A stretch of DNA of 64,000 bases, from contig OX422188.1 of NCBI GenBank assembly GCA_949130485.1, forward strand, positions 261,391 through 325,390, given 5' to 3'. This DNA comes from Agelas oroides. Lineage: Eukaryota > Porifera > Demospongiae > Agelasida > Agelasidae. The notes under the pieces were generated by a model. The model was not told the origin of the DNA and made no database searches. It saw only the letters and a program-made list of their open reading frames with translations. Of this stretch, positions 6,501-32,000 are shown piece by piece (the first letter of the stretch is position 1; every line of letters starts with the position of its first letter). Made by a program: the position numbers and the translations under genes.

Positions 6501-7062
6501 TTCGTAAGTGATTGTGAACTTTGCCAAAGGCTGCCAATTGTGATGCTTTCACTTGAATAGAAAGTCAATGCCAACCTCAATTCTGACCTCTTTACCATGG
6601 ATTTTGATTGACTATATAAGGTAAAACTGGAAGCTTCCACTTAAGAATCTTTGCAGTGGTGAAATAGCTAATTGACAGTTAATTTGTGCCCTATCCGGCT
6701 TCCCATACAATTCCTGCTTTTGCTTCATTACTTCCTATGCTCTATGACTATACTATGTTACTATAGTAACACATACTAAGAACTGCTAGAACATTGGTTA
6801 ATGTGATATTAATGTAATATGCCTGCCTACCATCATTGTCTTCAAGGATAGTGACATCTGCTTCATCAGGTGACACTGTCACAAGCTCAGCTTGGTCAGC
6901 ACCTTCAAGGGTCAAGGTCGCTCTGAACATTTCAGAATCCTCTGGGATATCATCGTTCACAATGGACACATTGAAGGAGAGTCGACGCATATCATTACTG
7001 AATGGACCCAGACGGAAGTCAGTGAGGGCACCATAGTCACTGGGAGCTGCATATGGATGAAA

Positions 7063-7098
<36 letters not shown>

Positions 7099-8936
7099 TT
7101 AAGAGTCTTCCTGTTAAGGAGATTGGCAGGGAACGTGTCCATTGCACCATGAGTCAGTGAAAATGAGATACTTGATTTTATTTACTTATTCCTTTTGGGG
7201 TCTTGCATGTGTGTGATATAGCTGAATAATGTAATGTTAAGGTGGCGGGTAAGTCTTTCGGCGGAGGTTAACGAAAACATAAACTTGGGTTACAGTCAGG
7301 ACCAGGGTTACTCCTAGTTTCAGGGTTAGGGTTTGGTTTAGGGCAATCTTGCTTTGCCTAATTTTAAAAAGGGTTTTAGTAGCTCATTAATATATTCATG
7401 AACCCAAAATTGCTACTCGATGGACGCATCTACACGCTCACTGTAGGTAGCGTCCCAACCACCAATGTATCTCAAATCAATCTATGCCAGCTTTTGTTCA
7501 AAGCTACTCTCAAAGTCAGGCTAGACTCATGTTTGTCACTACTCTTGGAATGGACAACTTTGACTGCACCAAAATGAATGCACATTTCGAAAAATTCACA
7601 ACTTGTCTACGGGAGGGGCTCATTCACGAGTGGAAGCAAGCATTACTAGCCCCACCTCTCCCCCTTATGTCGCTAAACAACTCACGGCTCTGTTCCACAC
7701 ACAGCCGCCGTTCAGCTCCCTTGGCTGTCAGACTGTAGCACCAACGATAAATTGCGTATTCTAGTTAAAGCCCAGCCCAGCACTCGAAGCACCTGGCCAC
7801 GGTCACCAACTAGGCTAGGCATACGGCCGCGAGACCTGGGCCTACTCAACAAATACAGTCTTGGCCACTGTGGCCTTTCTGCTGCTTCTAGACACAAGCT
7901 TGCTTTCACAAGCAGGCATCACGCACTACTCACAGCTACTGACACTACAGCACTCTACTAAACTCCTTTTTTTTTTTTTTTTTTTTTTTTTTAAGTCGAT
8001 CTAAGCTTATCTTCAAAGTTCCGACCACCACATGAAGGGTACCGCCAGGCCACATCTTAACTAACTTAATTATAAACTGATTATTGGATGCCAATGCCGA
8101 CAGGAAATGGGGAAAATCCCCAATTTTACGGACAGTGAACGGTTTGAGACTCCCAAAACTGATTACACGCTAAAAGTTTAGCAAGACAAAGAAATCTATC
8201 AGCTTGGATTCCAGGTTTGTCAACCTTCAAAGTAACAGGGTTATCTGCCACCTTAAGCTCGTTACTATGGGAGTATCACAGTAGTAACTACATATTTGAC
8301 TGTTCTGCCGTTTCCAGTTCAGTTTTCTTTTTGCTGGTCATCAGGGGAGTTCCCAGTCTGATCTTTGCACAAACACAGGTTTTGGCTCCTTTAAACTCCC
8401 GACCTGTGGATGGCTACATATGTACAATGATGGAGTCCAGCTCAGTCTGGTAGTTGGGACATGCTGCATGTGGGCTTGGAACATGTAGGCTCACTACATG
8501 CGATCTTACACATGCTTCAGTCATCGGTCTTATGGTAGCTAGATGACTATAGACTGTCACAGCTATTTCACCTTTTAACTTGAATCTCTAAGAATCAAAT
8601 GAGTACTTGAACTATTGTTTTTGTTTACAGACCAGCAAAATGAAAGTAGTAGCAATGCCAGAAGTATACTTCTATGACTTATCTCTTAGGAAGGCAATGG
8701 ATGCTGCTAGATTCTTCTCTTTAGTTGATCTCTCTTCTTTCTTTTCTACATGTGACTGACCTTTTCTCATGATGTCATAGGTAGGCTACTGTTATGATTG
8801 TTAATTGGTTGGGTGGGATCACTGATTGTTATCTACAAGTTGTGTGACTTGGTTAATGTTGTTATGTGGACTCAGAGAGAGAGAGAGAGAGACAGAGAGT
8901 GTGTGTGTATGCATGTGTGTGTGTGCATGCGTGTAC

Positions 8937-11900: not shown

Positions 11901-14900
11901 GAGGCCTGGGAACGAGGCTACATGTAGACACCATTTGATACTAAAATATGTATGGGAAATGGGGAAGGTGCCACACATACAGAAGATTACATGTCCACAT
12001 GCTTGCAAAACTTCTCACTACAGAAATGTAACCATTTAACTGGTGTTTGCTATATCATACGTACCTGCACTGCCATCTTGTGTCTCAACAGTGAGGTTGA
12101 AGGTAACAGTACCAATGTCCTGTCGTGTTGGCACTGTAATGTTGACACAAAGTACCACCTGTCCATCTGCTTCCCCAACTGTGTATATGCGCCTCTCAAA
12201 TCCCACCATCACAGCTGTAAGAAGAACAGCATAAAGTTGAATGGTATCATAATATACATCTCAGTTTCACAAAACCTAGACACAGCTAAAGTGTCTGCGC
12301 ATCTTCAAGGTCTGTGGTATCATTTAATTTGTCTATGGTAGTATGTTACTGTGATAAATTTTTCAACACAGCTCTTAATCCTGAGAGGTGTTGATATATC
12401 TACTGAGACACCACAGGCATATAAGGACTATTATGTGCTATCTTTCTTTAATAAAACCTGACAGGATGGCAACTTCAAGGGGTGGTCATTCCCATAGGCG
12501 CCGTAGTCACAGCTGTGACCGGGGTCAAGAAGCAGTCAAGGGGTCAAGGGCTGTTTTTGGTGTCGGTCAAGCGGTCAAGGACAATTTTCAAACTCGGTAA
12601 CAGCGGTCAAGATGTTTACGTTTTGTGTGTGCGTATTGTACATAGTGTAGTCAAATGTGTGCGGTCAAACGGTCAAGGTCCCGTTTGCGGTGCGGTCAAG
12701 CGGTCAAGCAACAAAAACGATGGTCAAAATTTTTTGACCCCGGTCGCAGCTGTGACTACGCCTATGGGAGTGACCACCCCTTGAACTTTATGCCAGAAAT
12801 GCAAGTTATTTGTGGGTGGGAACCAGTGAGAAGCAAAAATATAATTACGTATAAACACATGCAAAACTGTAGGTTGCAAGGGCAGCTTGACTCATAGTAC
12901 TCACTACTTCTCTCTGTGTGAAGATGTTCTCACCAAGTTGAATTACCGTTTTTTTTCCAAATAAAACACACCATCCAATCTAGCCCAAGAAATTCAATTC
13001 TGGGAATTTATGGGTGGATCCAACTTAGAGGCAAGCTGCCACTAATTAATTTGGGGTTGATCCAATTTAGCGCAATACCAGGATGAAGCCTCTCAGTTGG
13101 CCCAGTCAGTTTATTTTGTGGCAACCCAAAGGGTGGTCCAGAACAATTTCCAGGAAAAAGAGCTATCCCATAAATGTTCTACCATAGATTGTAAACCTAC
13201 GTAACCGGGATATTAAATCCGGAACATAAGTCAGTATGCGGACATCCCTACACACCTATTCTACTTACCTTTGGCCCTCCGTCTGGGCATAATGCCTGCT
13301 GGGGCGTATCACGGCTGCGCCACCATTTTAACCCCCTTTTGCTAATATGCTTGGGGGTGTATGACAAGCCCCGCCCCAAGCTGCATGAGAGGTATACTGA
13401 GCGGGGGTTGTCACTGCCCAGACGTGATCACATTACCGGCCGTTAGGTTGAAACCAGTAATGGAGTAAAAGACAGGGATGTGGTGGGTGGGAGTTTGTTT
13501 CTTAGCACGTTCCCTCATCCCACGTTCTCCCGCTCGCGCGGCTGAATAACTGCACATGCGCCTTCTACTGTAGGCGTGGCCAACCACAAGGCACCCCCTC
13601 CTTTAATCTTGTTTAACTACATTAAACTCCAATTAAATCCGGAACATAAGTCAGTATGCGGACATCCCTACACACCTATTCTACTTACCTTTGGCCCTCC
13701 GTCTGGGCATAATGCCTGCTGGGGCGTATCACGGCTGCGCCACCATTTTAACCCCCTTTTGCTAATATGCTTGGGGGTGTATGACAAGCCCCGCCCCAAG
13801 CTGCATGAGAGGTATACTGAGCGGGGGTTGTCACTGCCCAGTGCGAAGGGACCACAGGTTCCTGAGACACCCCCAAGGTGACTAGGATAAATTATAGGGA
13901 ATGACAATCACTCATGTTGTATATAGATGAATGCACCTTATACACACCATTCCATGATCGTAACCATGACTATAATAACATAACCTAAGTGTTACTTGGA
14001 CTGTACAGACGTAACCATCTGACCTGACGAGGACCAGACATAGGCTGTCATGCTCGGTTGAAGGGGGGTCACAAAATTCTGGCTGTCAGAGAGGCCAGGT
14101 GGTGACCTGGCGTCCGGATGTACAACAAGAATGCTGCGCTGCTCCATCGCCCAAGGGTCTGTATGGTTGAATCCGGGAGCCCTGCTTGGGAGGCTGCAGT
14201 TGCCGCACCTATTCGAAAACTATGACCCGCGTACAACAATGGGTCCATCCCAATCGCAGTGAGTGCACTCCTCAATTCGGCTATGAACGTCTGCTTCACC
14301 AAGGGGTTCTTCTCCTGCAGGAGGAAGAATGGGCCTGCCGTCTGACCTCGCATCGCCATATACGCCACTATTGCTGTGACTGGGCATCGTTGGTTGTCTG
14401 TCTTGCCCACAAAGATATTGACCCCTTTCCCAAATTGATCGCATTTTGACACCCGGAGATGCACTCTCAGCATTTGAGGAGCACGAGCGTTGTCGACTGT
14501 GATGTCACCCCACAACAGACGACCTTGCTGATCTGCTTGAGCCTTCGATGATGGAAGGAGCTCGCCTAAACGGAAAAACCCCGCAAAGCACAGTGCTGAT
14601 ACTGCCCACAATCCCAGCCTCTCCTTGTGTTCTGTCGCTTCCCAGTGACCTCTTAACCGGTCTAATATGGCCGGAGTAATTGGTAGCCTGACCCGCTTTG
14701 ACGGTGAGCCCTTAGTGGACTGGATTCTCTGAATCCCAGCCTGTATGCGTCGCAGTATTGGAAGAGAGGAGCTGTCGCGTGGATCAGGAAAACCGAGACT
14801 GATGTGCATATTACGTGTCGCTGACATGTACGTCTTGATCGTCTGGTGAGCCAGCCCTCGTTTTGTCAGGAACACCGCATAATAGCACAGAAGCTTCTCG

Positions 14901-17900
14901 GACAGGGGAAAAGGGTTAAATATCATATACTGGGAACAAAATTCAACGAAGCGTTTCATTGCTGCTCTGTATGTGCGTTGAGTGGACTGGGCCAGGCCCT
15001 GTTCAAAGTAGAATTGAAGAGCTGAATCCAGGCTGGAGAGATCCAGTCTGCCTCCGTCGACAGTAGGAGGTTGGGGAGAGCTGCTGGTATTGCTGCTGCT
15101 GACTTGTCGGCTGTTGGTACCTTCAACAAGAAAGCAGACAGATTATTCCGCGATAAATCATCCGCCCTGCCATTGTCAATACCAGGTATGTGACTACACA
15201 GCAGCTTAAATTGCCCCCGCGCTTCATAGAAGAATAGGCATCTCAATAGATGCATGAGGTGTCTATCACGGGATGATCTAGAATTCATGACCGCCACTAC
15301 TGTTTGGTTGTCACAGTAACATGAGACGCAGGAGCCTTTCCAGTTGTGACCCCACACCACTGCAGCCATCACTATTGGGACCAGCTCTTTCACTGCTATA
15401 TGCAGGAGCTGCGCTTTGGCATCCCAGGGGTACTGAAACCATTGGTTTCCATACGAGGCCCCGCAGCCCCACAATCCTGAGGCGTCTGACGTGAACCCTA
15501 GGCCTGGATCTAACTTGGGACCCTGAATGAGTTCCACCCCATTCCACTGCTCTATGAAGCACCTCCACCAAGCTAGGTCTGCCCTAAACTCCCTATTCAA
15601 GCGAATATGATGGTGGGAGTGATGCAAGCCTGTCCTGCCTGTAGCTGACAGCAGGTCAATCATTCTGCGAAGGAACGTGCGGCCAGGGCGCACCACTTTG
15701 CAGGCATGGTTCAACAAACCGATCAACGACTCCAGCTCCCTCCGAGTGCATACCTTCCTGTCTCCCCACTCCTGGAGCACCGATGTGAGTCTTTGCAGCT
15801 TATCTGCTGGGAGTCTCAAAATGCGTGCATGAGAGTCCATTTCAATACCCAGAAATGTGAGGCACGTTGTTGGGCCTTCACGCTTATGAGCTACAAGGGG
15901 GACACCGAGTGTGGTGCATATTGACTCCAGTGTCGACAGGTCTTTCTGGCATTGGTCTGAGTCTGGGGGGCCAACGATGATGAAGTCATCCAAGTAGTGA
16001 TGAATGTGGCTCACCTCCTGCTCCCTGGCACACCACTCCAGGGCATCCGCCACCGCTGTAAAAATTTTGGGGGCTGACCGGAGCCCAAATGGCAGCATGC
16101 CATCACAGAATGTGTCCCCATGCCATCTCACTGCCAGGAGAGGGCGGTCATCCGGATGGACCGGTATGAGTCGATATGCTGACTCAATGTCAACCTTCGC
16201 CATTAGTGAACTGGGTCCCAAGGAAGCTACTATCGAGGCGACTGTGTCCACTGTGACATATGACAGTGAACAGTATCGTGGGTTGACCCCATCGTTGACA
16301 CTGCTTCCTGGAGGGTGTGACAAGTCGGTGATTAGCCTCCACTTTCCAGGGGAGTGGCCCTTGGGGATGACCCCAAACCTGTTGACATGCAGGCTGGGGG
16401 AAACTAATGGCCCAATAAGGTGACCTGCTGCCCTTTCTTTGGCCAGATAGTCCTCCACCACCGATGCTTGTTTTCCTGCTGAGGGCATGTTGTGATATGT
16501 CGACCTCAAGGGGCATGCCCGGTTGAACCCAATTCGAAATCCTTGGGTCAAACCGGTTATGATGTAATGTCGGAATTGGGCATCGGGGTGGTTAGCCAAT
16601 GCTGCTGTCCATGCTTCGATGTGCAGAGGTGTTGTTATTGGCTTTAGTGCACTTAGGACATTAGGCATCTGGGGTCTGCATGCATCCAGTGCCAGCAGGT
16701 CATTGATGTAAGTGTAGTGTGGGCTGTGCCTGCCTATCAAGTCTGTGAGGTGAGAATGAAGGAAGAGTGTAATCCCTGATCCTAACTCAGATGTGTGTGT
16801 GGGTGGGGGGGGGGTAGCCCCCCTCAATCACCCTGGTGATTAGGCTACCGCTAGTACCCTAAATCTGTTCTAAGCTTGAGCTACATGTGCCTGGTCACAC
16901 CCTAGTTGGGTGGAGCACATTCATGTGAGCTATCCTACCCTATCCTAGTTCATCCTTCGTGCATTCCTATGTGGGTTAGTTCTGTGTGTGTGTGGTCTAT
17001 AATGTTGAAATGACTTTCGATGATCATGGCTGTGTATAATGGAATCACATGGCATAACGCAGATGAGAAGTTTGGTTCTGTTTCTGTTTTTTCAAGGCCG
17101 CTTGCCAGCTACCAGCATCCGGTGTTCCTGGCGTTGCTGCCTCGGGGACCGGTCCCTGGCCTGGTGGGGGAGTCTCATGCGAGTAGGGGACTCTGTGCAG
17201 AAGCTTGCCGGGTGTGGCTGGCTGCAGATGGAGCAGATATGAAGGTACCTGCACCGCCGCAGAAAACATCGGTTCTCATTGAACTTCCTGCATGCCTCCT
17301 GGTGTGGTCCTGGCGGGTAGAACCTCGGTGGCGCCACACCCATTGCATACTCGGGTGGCCATGGCCCCCACAGCTGTTGGAATTCTGGGCAGCCTTCTGA
17401 GGTATGAAACTCACTCAGGCAGTGACGGCACCTGGCGATTGCTTTCGCATGTCCCACAAACGCCTCATTGTACAAGGCGGAGTCCTCCTGGGCCCAATCC
17501 AGGCTGTGTCGAGCTAACGCTTGACGTCGGTAGAGGCGGTCATAGGCCACCCAGGCTGACCCTTGGAAGTTTCGGGCCGCATGAACAATTCGGCGTAGGT
17601 ATGCGAATAGCTGAGGGGCCTTATCTGGAAACTTTTCTGCTATCACTGCTGCCATGAGTGCAAAGCACTCCGTCCAGGCCACAACATCTGTAATGGGAGC
17701 TCTGCGTGATGGCCTCCGAAGTGCCGGTGGGACATCCTGTATCTCCGGGATCCACGACTCCTGTAACATCTCATTCATCTCAACAAAATCCAGGGCTTGG
17801 ATTCTAGCCACCAGTTTTTTGGGGAGTCGAGCCGTCGGAGAGTAGCTGCTAGGGTTCAGTTGCAATGGGGTGTTAGATGGTGCTGGGTCTTGTGCTAGCC

Positions 17901-20900
17901 CAGACACTAGCTGAGCTAGACTCGTCGGGTTGTCTGCGTCAAAGCTTGGTAATCGCAGTGCCTCCAAGTTCTCCGGCAAGGTGCCTAATGGCAATGTTCC
18001 TGGATACAGGGAGGGTAAAGTAAGGGGGTGTGAGGTTTGAGGTGTGGCAGATACCATGAGGGGGCAGGGAGGAATGACAGCAATCATTACTGCTAATATG
18101 GTACTGCTCTTTGTGCAAGATGTGGCCGCTGGCCAGCTTCCCTGTCTGCAATCCAGACTTACGGCCGCTGGCCAGCTTCCCTGTCTTGCAGTTGCTCCCT
18201 GGGTTGTGGCCGCTGGCCAGCTTCCCCATCCCAATGTTGCACTCTCCTGGGTTAAGGCCGCTGGCCAGCTTCCCCATCCCAATGTTGCACTCTCCTGGGT
18301 TGAGGCCGCTGGCCAGCTATTTGCAGTTGCACTCTGGGTTGAGGCCGCTGGCCAGCCTCCCCATCCCGTTGTTGCACTGTGGGTTGCGGCCGCTGGCCAG
18401 CTTCCCATCCCACTGTTGCACTATCCTGGGTTGTGGCCGCTGGCCAGCTTCCTCCTTGCCACCGTTCCCTTTGTGGCCACTGTCCCCCCTTTTGCCTTCT
18501 GGTCAGGCGTACAGCTGAATCCTTCATCTGCCCGCCAAGCCTGTCCCGGCAGGGCTGCTTGCCGGTGCGGGGGGTTGCGGGGTAATAAGCGACCGTCCTG
18601 ACAAGGGGTGGGGTCGGGCGCGCGCCCTTTTGTCATCCGGGCAATTAGTGTCCCCTATGGCTATCCGGTGCGGTGGGCCATCAGCCATCGCGGTAGCTGT
18701 ACTTTATTGTCTTACGTCATGCTAACTCACCGCTGCTATTATCGCCGCTGTTAGCTGCGGAGGTCGAAGGCTGTACCCCAGGTCCGGAGGGGGGAGGGCG
18801 GGCCCATTGGGCAGCCAACCGTTGCAGCCATTGGCACTGCTCCTCGGAGAAAGGCGCGCTCGCATTGTCCTGGTTGTCTGTCGGCAGCGGGGAAGCCATC
18901 TTGCTGCACCTGGTTGTCGACAAATTATCTCTTTCCTGCTCGGTTCTTGCGTTTGTTTCTTAGCACGTTCCCTCGTCCCACGTTCTCCCGCTCGCGCGGC
19001 TGAATAACTGCACATGCGCCTTCTACTGTAGGCGTGGCCAACCACAAGGCACCCCCTCCTTTAATCTTGTTTAACTACATTAAACTCCAAGGAAACATTT
19101 CGTTTACGCATTAGATCATCGTTTCACCGGAAGTTACACTTCCTGTTTGAACGGTGGTACATGGTGGAAGTTAAGTTTACATGAGGCTTATCACAAATCC
19201 TCTCAAGCATCGTCTCAAATGGCAGCGCTAGCTGGCGGAGCCGTGATGAGGCTGAGGTCCAATCACAAACACTGATGCAGAAAGGTGAGCCTTGTGAATA
19301 AATCAAAGGAGCAGCTGTCCTTTGGCGGGTAGGCTCTATTTAGAAACTAAGCCGCCATAAAGTAATAAAAACTTGCTCAGTATGAAGTGTTAGGCTTCCC
19401 ACATTGTTTATATTACTGTCGCAATAGCCCCACTCAGGTTTCAAATTTGGCCTACAGGTTGCCTACAGAGAGGATGATGACAAATTATGCCGACTGCTTC
19501 CTTCAAAGAATTGCTGCACTAGCCATCTGCTTTGTATGCCTAGTTTGACAAGCTATTACAGTAGCTGCTCCACAACTGTCCCACATCCAGGAGTTCATCC
19601 ACTGTTTTGCTTGATGGGAACAATTTCTTCACAACAGTGGAAATTTGTACGCCAGAAAGACTCACATTATGGCTCCGAGCTGCCAGCAACAATCCTAACT
19701 ACATGTGTTTGGTTACTACCCAGTTGTTCATCTTACCATACTATGTCAGCTGCACCCACCATCGCAAGGAAATACTCAAACTTTGGACGAGGCTGTTTGT
19801 GTCCCATTGTCATACCACAAGGAATACTTTTCCCTTATGCAGATGAAAGCTATACTCCAACAGTTCATTACGCGAACCTTTCCAATGAATGCTCAACACC
19901 TGAAAGAATGCCCAGAGAGTTTTGTCGCAACTCAAAAATGCACCCATCATGACATACAATTGAATTTCATTTTTGCCTTCCGGGCGTTATCATAGTGATG
20001 TGGGTTGTTATTATTAACTTATATCTCATAAATGAATGAAGTAACAGTTGAAATAGTAGTGTCTTGCATTAAACCATGCCCTACTGAATGTTCAAAACCA
20101 CTATGGGGTCAATGTTAATACCTGGTAGTCATTTATAGGTACACAAACTTAGCACATTATTGTATGCAAAAATCATACAAAAAGACCGTATACCAACGAG
20201 CTTTTCACCAAAATTTTGAAATAAAACCGTCGTTGCAACGTAGCACACCCCCACCTTCACAGAACAAGCGTTTATAAGTTGAGATAACGCAAGTAGGTGC
20301 TGCTAGAGGGACACAAAGAAAGCGAAACACCAGTCTGGTCCAAAAATACAATTTTAACGCACACTTATTTAGCTTGCTCGGCAAAATTATACCTCCAAAC
20401 ACGCGTACAGAGTCCGTAGATCATACCTTGGTGCTCTACAGATCCTCTTGTACGTTTCAATGCTTGCTGTTCCCTTTGCCTGTGTCGAAGACTCAAACGA
20501 CGCGCAACACGCAATGAGGCCAAAACCGAAACGATGATTCAGTCAGGCGTTAACTACGGCATAATGCGGGATCACGTGAGATGTTTCCTATCCCGGTTAC
20601 GTAGGTTTACAATCTATGGTTCTACTTTGGTGCTTGTAAGACTTTTTGTTGCTGCAGCTGCTACTGACTACCAAGAACCTCATTTCCGGAGAACTGAAGC
20701 CAGGAACTCTTGCATCTCTGTGTGACCAAAAATTTTTCATGTTTGAATCCATTGTAACGCATGATCTAATCTAACGCAAGAAATTTATGGGTGGTTCTAG
20801 CCCGTTACTATGTGGTTGCTATGTAATAGAGTGCATTATATTTCAGATAAAGCCTTGTAGTTTGTATCCCGTGGGCATCAAGTACAGGTAACTTTATTTG

Positions 20901-29011: not shown

Positions 29012-32000
29012 TCTAAGCTTATCTTCAAAGTTCCGACCACCACATGAAGGGTACTGCCAGGCCACATCTTAACTAACTTAATTATAAACTGATTATTGGA
29101 TGTCAATGCCGACAGGAAATGGGGAAAATCCCCAATTTTATGGACCGTGAGCGGATGAAGACTCCCAAAATGGACTGTGCGCTTAAAGTTTACAAAGACA
29201 AAGAATTCTATCAGCTTGGATTCCAGGTTTGTTGACCTTGAAAACACAGGGTTCCCTGCCACCTTAAGGTGGCGGGGGAAGTCACTTGGCGGAGGTTAAC
29301 GAAAACATAAACCTGGGTTACAGTCAGGACCAGTGTTACTCCTAGTTTCAGGGTTAGGGTTTGGTTTAGGGCAATCTTGCTTTCCCTAATTTTAAAAAAG
29401 GGTTTTAGTAGCTCATTAATATATTCATGAACCAAAATTGCCACTCAATGGACGCATCTACACGCTCATTGTAGGTAGCGTCCTAACCACCAATGCATCT
29501 CAAATCAGTCTGTGCCAGCTTTTGTTCAGAGCTACTCCCAAAGTCAGGCTAGACTCATGTTTGTCACTACTCTTGGAATGGACAACTTTGACTGCACCAA
29601 AATGAATGCACATTTCAAAAAATTCACAGCTTGTCTACGGGAGGGGCTCATTCACGAGTGCAAGCAAGCATTACTAGCCCCACCTCTCCCCCTTATGTCG
29701 CTAAACAACTCACGGCTCTGTTCCACACACAACCACCGTTCAGCTCCCTTGGGTACCAGAGTGTAGCACCAACGATAAATTGCGTATTCTAGTTAAAGCC
29801 CAGCCCAGCACTCGAAGCACCAGGCCACGATCACCTACTAGGCTTGGCATACGATCGCAAGACCTGGGCCTGCCCAATGAGTACAGTCTTGGCCACTGTG
29901 GCCTTTCTGCTGCTTCTAGACACAAGCTTGCTTTCACAAGCAGGCACTTCACACTACTCACAGCTACTGACACTTCAGCACTCTACTAAACTCCTTTTTT
30001 TGCTTTTTGTTTTTTTTAAGTCAATCTAAGCTTATCTTCAAAGTTCCGACCACCACATGAAGGGTACTGCCAGGCCACATCTTAACTAACTTAATTATAA
30101 ACTGATTATTGGATGTCAATGCCGACAGGAAATGGGGAAAATCCCCAATTTTACGGACCGTGAGCGGATGAAGACTCCCAAAACGGACTGTGTGCTTAAA
30201 GTTTACAAAGACAAAGAATTCTATCAGCTTGGATTCCAGGTTTGTTGACCTTGAAAACACAGGGTTCCCTGCCACCTTAAGAAAGCAAAAATAAGAAATC
30301 ACCAAATTTTTCATAACTCACCATCATCATCTTCAATCACTATTTCAAGTTGTTGAAAGCAGCCATTAGCCTCAGTACAAGTAAAAGTTGGGCTGTCAAT
30401 GGCTGGAGTGATAGACAGCTGGAATACCTCTTGGTTCTCTGGTGTATTATCTCCAATAACTTGGTAGGTAAATGGTCTGTTGGGTTCGAATCGTGTCAGT
30501 CTTATAAACACAATTGTAGCTCCACTGATTTCAAAATCTTCACCTCGTGTAGCACTTTGCCCAAATGGTGAGTTAAGAGTACCAAGTTCAACTCGAGCAG
30601 TAAAGTTTTGTTCAGATGCACGACTTTTATTAATGAGTGTATCAAAAAATCGAAACTCTTCAGTGTGGAAGATTCTTCGTTGTGTAAAACCAATTTCAAT
30701 AGCTGTAGATATGAGGGAAGAAAGGAAACAGCAATCAACACAGAAACCACCAATTATAGGTGTGGTAAGCTGCAGTTACACAAACACTGATGATATTTCA
30801 TAGCATGTATGCATGAACCTTAGTAGTTAAACACATCTCTGATGGTATTGAACTTTCTCCATGTTCAGCTCATGGCCAGGTAACAGAACTTATCGCATAG
30901 TATCTAATAATGCTCAGAGCATCTTGTCTCATGCTGAAAATAAAGGAATTTAAATGTTACGAGGTGAAAATAGAGGAAAGTGAAAAGGCCGGCATTCGCC
31001 GGGAGTTGAACCCAGGACACCTCTGGCTTGAGCCGCTAGTGCTCTGCCACTGAGCCACGACAGCTGGACAACCACCAATCCTCTATATGTATTGCACAGG
31101 TGGTACTGAATGCCTCAATCGTACACCTGGCAGGCACTCAGTATGTGCCGTCAGAACTCCATTGGGGGTCGACAGGAAAGTTCTCTCCATCAGGAGAGAA
31201 CCCATGGTGAATGGTTTTTCTCACTCTAATTGCTTAGAGCATCTTGCCTTTATTTCAGCGTGAGGCAAATGAATGAATGGATGAATCAACACTAGCAGGG
31301 GACTTTCCTTGCTCGCAGCATTTAAAAGTGTTTTGTGTGCACAGCACCCAGGATGGCTGGAGACTGGTGATAATAGGCATGTTTAAACTACTAGGCAATG
31401 CACTATTTTTATAGAAAATGAATGAGTCCAGAGGAAATCACATGAGTAAGCATAAGGCCAAGATAATAAAATTTCCGGTTTCTCAGACAATTTTGGGGTT
31501 CTCAACCATATGGGTGGGTGGCTATTTTTTAATTACCTCCAATGAATATTTTTAAACACCACGAGTGGCGATCGTTCTATTGTTTGGCTGTTCTTCAATA
31601 AACGGTGCGAGCTATTCGCTGTACGAATGTGGTACGTGCTGTATGTGCGGTTTCTTGGCGTAATGTCTCAATCTCTCGCTGACAATCCTTGTCTGATGCT
31701 TGTAGCTTGAACAGTAGGTGATCAAAACCCTGCCCACCAGTGTATAGTGTCTATTTTTCTCCAAAGATAGTATGTTGAAAGGCTTTGGCGCGTTTTATAT
31801 TGTATGTTTGTAACTGGAGAGAAGTAGCGTAGGCGCTCAATTCTCGACCACTTTTCTGTGCAACGTCACCAGGCCGAGACGGATTAAGACTGCAGCGTCG
31901 GATAAACGTGAGTGCGAAGGTCGCTCTTTTGACTGCAGGTTGGCATTTTTAAATGTCCCGGGAGTTTTTATACGCATATGCAAATTTGAGAATCTGGCAG

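Follow-up and report, generated by a model that had tools for sequence, protein, structure and literature searches.

How can a retrotransposon whose reading frames overlap, mostly lack start codons and include a gag that a minisatellite appears to break still be a complete and recently mobile element? The question is raised by a locus in the sponge Agelas oroides, within a 64,000-nucleotide stretch of DNA analysed here as a whole (the window; positions 261,391 to 325,390 of contig OX422188.1, assembly GCA_949130485.1). In the portions of the literature searched, we found no explanation of how the overlapping, mostly ATG-less open reading frames (ORFs) of tyrosine-recombinase retrotransposons are expressed. 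Here we describe, at minus-strand positions 13213–19090 (5,878 bp), a structurally complete Ngaro-type tyrosine-recombinase retrotransposon that inserted recently, and we suggest from predicted splice sites that a single leader exon is probably spliced to its gag, reverse transcriptase (RT) and tyrosine recombinase (YR).

The element is delimited and organized by two pairs of split direct repeats:

18951–19090, minus strand: A1, the 5′ terminal repeat, 140 bp (repeat alignment)
13633–13841, minus strand: B1, 209 bp, its 3′ end adjoining A2 (repeat alignment)
13493–13632, minus strand: A2, 140 bp (repeat alignment)
13422–13492, minus strand: A2–B2 linker, 71 bp (copy comparison)
13213–13421, minus strand: B2, the 3′ terminal repeat, 209 bp (repeat alignment)

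The order from 5′ to 3′ is thus A1, ORFs, B1, A2, linker and B2. A first-pass annotation, made by a model from the letters alone, had read A1-ORFs-B1-A2-B2, and this layout stands with the addition of the 71-bp linker, which that annotation did not contain and which is kept in all three copies retaining the A2–B2 region. Its span is confirmed by the conserved ends, TTGGAG at 19090 and GGATTTAA at 13213, which sit exactly at both limits, and its claim of near-identical repeats by base-by-base alignment, with one mismatch in 140 positions between A1 and A2 and none in 209 between B1 and B2. An inverted-repeat scan of the element returned five pairs, all within the minisatellite, and found neither the inverted terminal repeats nor the internal complementary region of DIRS1-like elements. 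Split repeats of comparable size and identical order are present in four of the six further family loci that were read over a long stretch (L054, L055, L056 and L059; they were not found in the other two, L057 and L058), and we therefore discount chance as an explanation. Among the window and these four loci, linker length ranges from 61 to 291 bp and the linker's 5′ end is C-rich in all five (tcccaccca or similar); this start may be a candidate priming or transcript-end signal.

Between the terminal repeats lie two long enzyme frames, given here from their predicted phase-1 splice acceptors to their stops:

14956–16742, minus strand: RT/RNase H coding part (open frame starts at 16827)
14069–15120, minus strand: YR coding part (open frame starts at 15142)

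Both frames are open and in the same orientation, with YR the last before the internal repeats, and a Pfam search of the window ORFs returned RVT_1 and phage-integrase domains. The RT and YR coding parts overlap by 184 bases, and by 112–214 bases across the families (measurable in 13 of 14). In an alignment of 20 proteins, D162, D229 and D230 of RT and D397, E430, D455 and D505 of RNase H are invariant, which we take to be the acidic residues of the two enzymes; in the corresponding 20-protein alignment of YR, there is no variation at K232, H306, R309, W332 and Y340 and almost none at R190, presumably the recombinase residues by analogy with Cre. Residues 47–343 of YR match Cre (E = 1.1e-7). 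The AlphaFold model of RT (mean pLDDT 85.4) finds its best structural matches in the RTs of foamy virus, cauliflower mosaic virus and Ty3 (E = 5.9e-18 to 1.4e-16; TM 0.41–0.47 by query length), and a search of viral contigs with the RT found no relative. The annotated intactness of both enzymes, catalytic residues included, is accordingly upheld by the open frames and the two alignments.

By its features the element fits the Ngaro-like group, and not the PAT-like or DIRS1-like groups as these are defined by methyltransferase and repeats (comparisons with published elements, here and below, draw on portions of the cited papers). It has split direct repeats, a co-oriented RT/RNase H and YR, no methyltransferase and no target-site duplication; a Dam methyltransferase search of the window ORFs was negative at E values as high as 10, although the same model does match elsewhere in the genome. 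The Ngaro-type assignment of the first pass is thereby sustained by layout, RT/RNase H, YR and the absent Dam match. The A1-ORFs-B1-A2-B2 order, gag, RT/RNase H and YR without methyltransferase are shared with Ngaro-like elements of Xenopus (DIRS-53_XT; PMC9210276) and Cafeteria burkhardae (PMC8547959). The tyrosine recombinase and RT/RNase H are common to PAT-like and DIRS1-like elements as well, and the split direct repeats to PAT, but both groups carry a methyltransferase domain and DIRS1-like elements have inverted repeats, neither of which is seen here (PMC4157794, PMC3266345). There are differences too: Ngaro ORFs usually do not overlap (PMC3266345), a property that is not strictly defining, unlike the RT and YR here; and, unlike amphibian Ngaro-like elements, it has no hydrolase ORF, only about 230 bases lying between YR and B1. 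The Dam search of the host genome gave nine places among the matches listed, four of them above the curated cut-off; at two, L062 (above the cut-off) and L063 (below it), an RT/RNase H has a Dam-like tail, and these elements, which we label DIRS-like from their ORFs, coexist with the Ngaro-type families.

How the element entered its site can be read from empty sites. The window copy lies inside a short repeat that is empty at all eight loci aligned (GTTTCC/TATCCC; 20 of 49 listed matches span the site, and eight of these were aligned). A second copy, on contig C22 of the same genome, lies inside a different short repeat that is empty at all 12 loci aligned (ATAATTT/GTAGTG; 40 of 486 candidates were scored, and the 40 matches listed cover most of the joined query). 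Both insertions are base-exact, with neither target-site duplication nor deletion. The B1/A2 junction, TTTAA/TTGGAG at 13633/13632, is the reading expected of a circle closed from B2 to A1, and the ends of four other families are similar (TTAA on the B side; on the A side ATGGAG in two, TTGGAG in one and ATGCAG in one). Of the earlier proposal of recent transposition through a circle, recent insertion and recombinase-type integration are borne out by the empty sites, and the circular intermediate itself is inferred. Short repeats flank the element on both sides: that hosting it comprises 19091–19310 together with 13183–13212, and a second, at about 12993–13182 (17 listed matches), adjoins it.

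Comparison of copies adds to this picture. A search of the host genome (259 Mb, 141 contigs) located the C22 copy, with RT and YR frames open, and decayed copies on contig C2; the complete B1A2B2 block occurs at three places. Comparison of the window copy with C22 and C2b (located on C2 at 10235196) shows six substitution sites and one indel at which copies differ but the two repeats of a copy agree; six further variable sites are private to a single repeat. The repeats of C22 differ at 0 of 141 positions in A and 0 of 209 in B, those of C2b at three of 209 in B and two of about 73 in its truncated A. The repeats are thus homogenised copy by copy, as the model predicts because they are copied in each replication round, although gene conversion would homogenise them likewise. 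Together with the base-exact empty sites of two nested insertions, this homogenisation provides clean sequence support for the proposed circle-and-recombinase route. The element's family transposed recently, 'young' being a relative term here, with no clock for dating. Across leader, gag exon, RT and YR, the window and C22 copies are separated by 27 synonymous and nine non-synonymous changes (rough rate ratio 0.105), and in YR by eight and none; this excess of synonymous change indicates that the lineage linking the two was selected for function.

The gag frame is split at the minisatellite in the ORF map, and the first-pass annotation had listed this as the only visible defect. We suggest a different layout for the 5′ part of the element:

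18731–18899, minus strand: predicted leader exon, opening with ATG and spanning 56 codons and one further base, with a phase-1 donor at its end (G/GTGAGT)
18000–18730, minus strand: predicted intron 1, from the leader donor to the gag acceptor (inferred from sequence)
18163–18452, minus strand: minisatellite, 48-bp unit, 6.4 copies, within predicted intron 1 (tandem repeat)
17092–17999, minus strand: predicted gag exon, its C-terminal part rich in Cys and His (by eye, CCCH-like and CCHC-like)

The minisatellite frame differs among the three copies compared and the ORFs on both sides are kept; the split is therefore better read as an intron, the minisatellite probably being intron filling, and the supposed defect is not borne out. 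Indels between the window and C22 are located in the repeats and the 5′ untranslated part, in the predicted intron (minisatellite included) and between gag and RT; the leader ORF, gag exon and YR have none. A single indel was scored in the RT region; because both RT frames agree beyond it, it is placed before the predicted RT acceptor. The phase of the predicted gag acceptor, CCCTCCCTGTATCCAG/GA, matches the phase-1 donor of the leader, and all three copies compared (window, C22 and C2b) retain the donor and acceptors. Across families, a phase-1 GTRAG leader donor is found in six of the seven loci with 5′ sequence, and the best pyrimidine tract before gag is at phase 1 in six of seven (weak in L058). 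Four leaders (window, L054, L055 and L056) have a common F-[ST]-x-x-Q-x-x-W motif, with which the Ephydatia muelleri gene model P0241 also starts, joined there to gag and RT. The gag exon has no Pfam match and its predicted fold is unusable (mean pLDDT 44.2); a search with it gave five matches, the query among them, all with E. muelleri gene names. At L056, an unrelated tandem repeat (1868–2149, unit of about 53 bp) likewise lies between leader donor and gag acceptor.

The same phase recurs before the enzymes. We examined 23 loci, merged where near-identical into 14 families, and took the best acceptor, by a simple score of our own, within 120 bases upstream of each conserved core. This acceptor is at phase 1 ahead of RT in all 14 families and ahead of YR in 11. 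Acceptors that score 4 or more and have the right phase are found in seven of 14 families for RT and 11 of 14 for YR, compared with 237 and 87, respectively, of 4,118 null windows taken inside RT coding sequence (2,281 and 1,120 irrespective of score). The frame offset of YR relative to RT is alike in 13 of 14 families. No in-frame ATG lies upstream of the YR core in 13 of 14 families or of the RT core in nine of 14 (L047, whose frame is interrupted, was counted as having one). The agreement of donor and acceptor phases, together with the mostly missing upstream ATGs, favours alternative splicing in which a single leader exon serves gag, RT and YR.

Several observations weigh against this reading. 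The splice sites are predictions from DNA sequence alone, and the 14 families are related, so their phase counts are not independent; given this kinship, and YR acceptor sites whose positions are not all alike across families, binomial figures overstate the support. Three YR families are off-phase (L054 and L044 at phase 2, L057 at phase 0), and the YR acceptor in the window is AAG, a weak type. An initial scoring that did not apply the 120-base limit, made on unmerged loci of which some were not yet turned, placed RT at phase 1 in 12 of 14 loci and YR in 13 of 16, and RT in L049 is at phase 1 only under the limit, with a poor score (−0.7). No leader donor was found in L058 among the seven loci with 5′ sequence, the gag of L057 has a stronger tract at phase 0, and the gag acceptor scan was confined to YAG followed by G. 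A search of the genome with the 20-base predicted leader–gag junction gave no match at up to two mismatches, and hence no spliced retrocopy, a result that does not decide the matter.

The minisatellite does break the gag frame, and in-frame ATGs lie upstream of the predicted gag acceptor in five of seven families, the window included; both would suit an ordinary Ngaro element with a frameshifted gag, its RT and YR arising from internal starts or frameshifting. We consider this unlikely given that the minisatellite frame is unconserved where its flanking ORFs are conserved, that YR so consistently lacks an upstream ATG and that leader donors and acceptors are phase-consistent across families; a programmed frameshift for YR was rejected, as a slippery heptamer occurs in one of the 13 families whose RT–YR overlap is measurable. 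A leader intron used by gag alone, with a second splice linking RT to gag and YR made otherwise, would accommodate the E. muelleri models P0093 and P0241, which continue from gag to RT as one chain, unlike the alternative-splicing scheme. Such models may wrongly join parts, however, and the donor phase of the leader is that of the RT acceptor in every family and of the YR acceptor in most, which makes this account quite unlikely in our view. That the element is not a true Ngaro but PAT-like after loss of its methyltransferase appears very improbable. A methyltransferase-less PAT-like lineage has been reported in Caenorhabditis briggsae, and structural features have been called homoplasious (PMC4157794). 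The RTs of the Dam-matching L062 and L063, however, are 27–28% identical to that of the window, and in an RT tree they split from the other 26 rows, window included, with 100/100 support, these two same-genome elements being the only outside rows and L047, for its interrupted frame, being left out.

Taken jointly, a complete Ngaro-type element, a leader exon spliced alternatively to gag, RT/RNase H and YR, and integration of a circle form an explanation that we consider fairly likely. Transcription would start from A1; the 56-codon leader, through its phase-1 donor, would be spliced alternatively to phase-1 acceptors before gag, RT/RNase H and YR, giving three proteins with one N terminus. Unspliced RNA would be reverse transcribed, keeping the introns, the cDNA would be circularised, guided by the internal B1–A2 junction, and the recombinase would insert this circle. 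Somewhat likely, in our judgement, is the wider proposal that throughout a lineage of Ngaro-type elements all proteins come from one coding leader by phase-1 alternative splicing and only intron-retaining RNA transposes. If so, splicing would sort element RNAs into messengers and genomes, and elements scored as gag-broken may be intact. The proposal is concrete: a leader exon common to the three proteins predicts three splice junctions.

Parts of this scheme have precedents elsewhere. Some Penelope-like elements, unrelated to this one and with an unrelated integration enzyme, keep introns, and in Rous sarcoma virus, whose integration enzyme is likewise unrelated, Env shares the Gag start codon, that is, a coding leader across spliced products. 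In the Arabidopsis Ty1/Copia element EVD, different proteins are made from the spliced and the unspliced RNA of a single retrotransposon, as predicted here, but EVD belongs to an unrelated order and its splicing yields a short gag RNA, in contrast to one coding leader predicted for three ORFs (PMC8892269). The predicted shared leader exon and introns do not feature in the cited descriptions of Xenopus DIRS-53_XT and the C. burkhardae Ngaros, and in the portions of the literature searched, which did not extend to the original Ngaro papers, no shared leader exon is described for Ngaro or DIRS elements.

The host genome contains at least 77 RT matches in many related families. Of the six loci read over a long stretch, four (L054, L055, L056 and L059) have full split repeats with 99.6–100% identity, and several families therefore look recently active. 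At L058, 664-bp direct repeats (390–1052 and 7031–7693; 99.5% identical) flank one family member; a long-terminal-repeat-like reading of this locus was dropped, as these repeats are not present in two short stretches beside its sister copy. Elsewhere in the window, ARAGORN and Rfam place a tRNA-Glu (CTC) at 30991–31064 on the minus strand.

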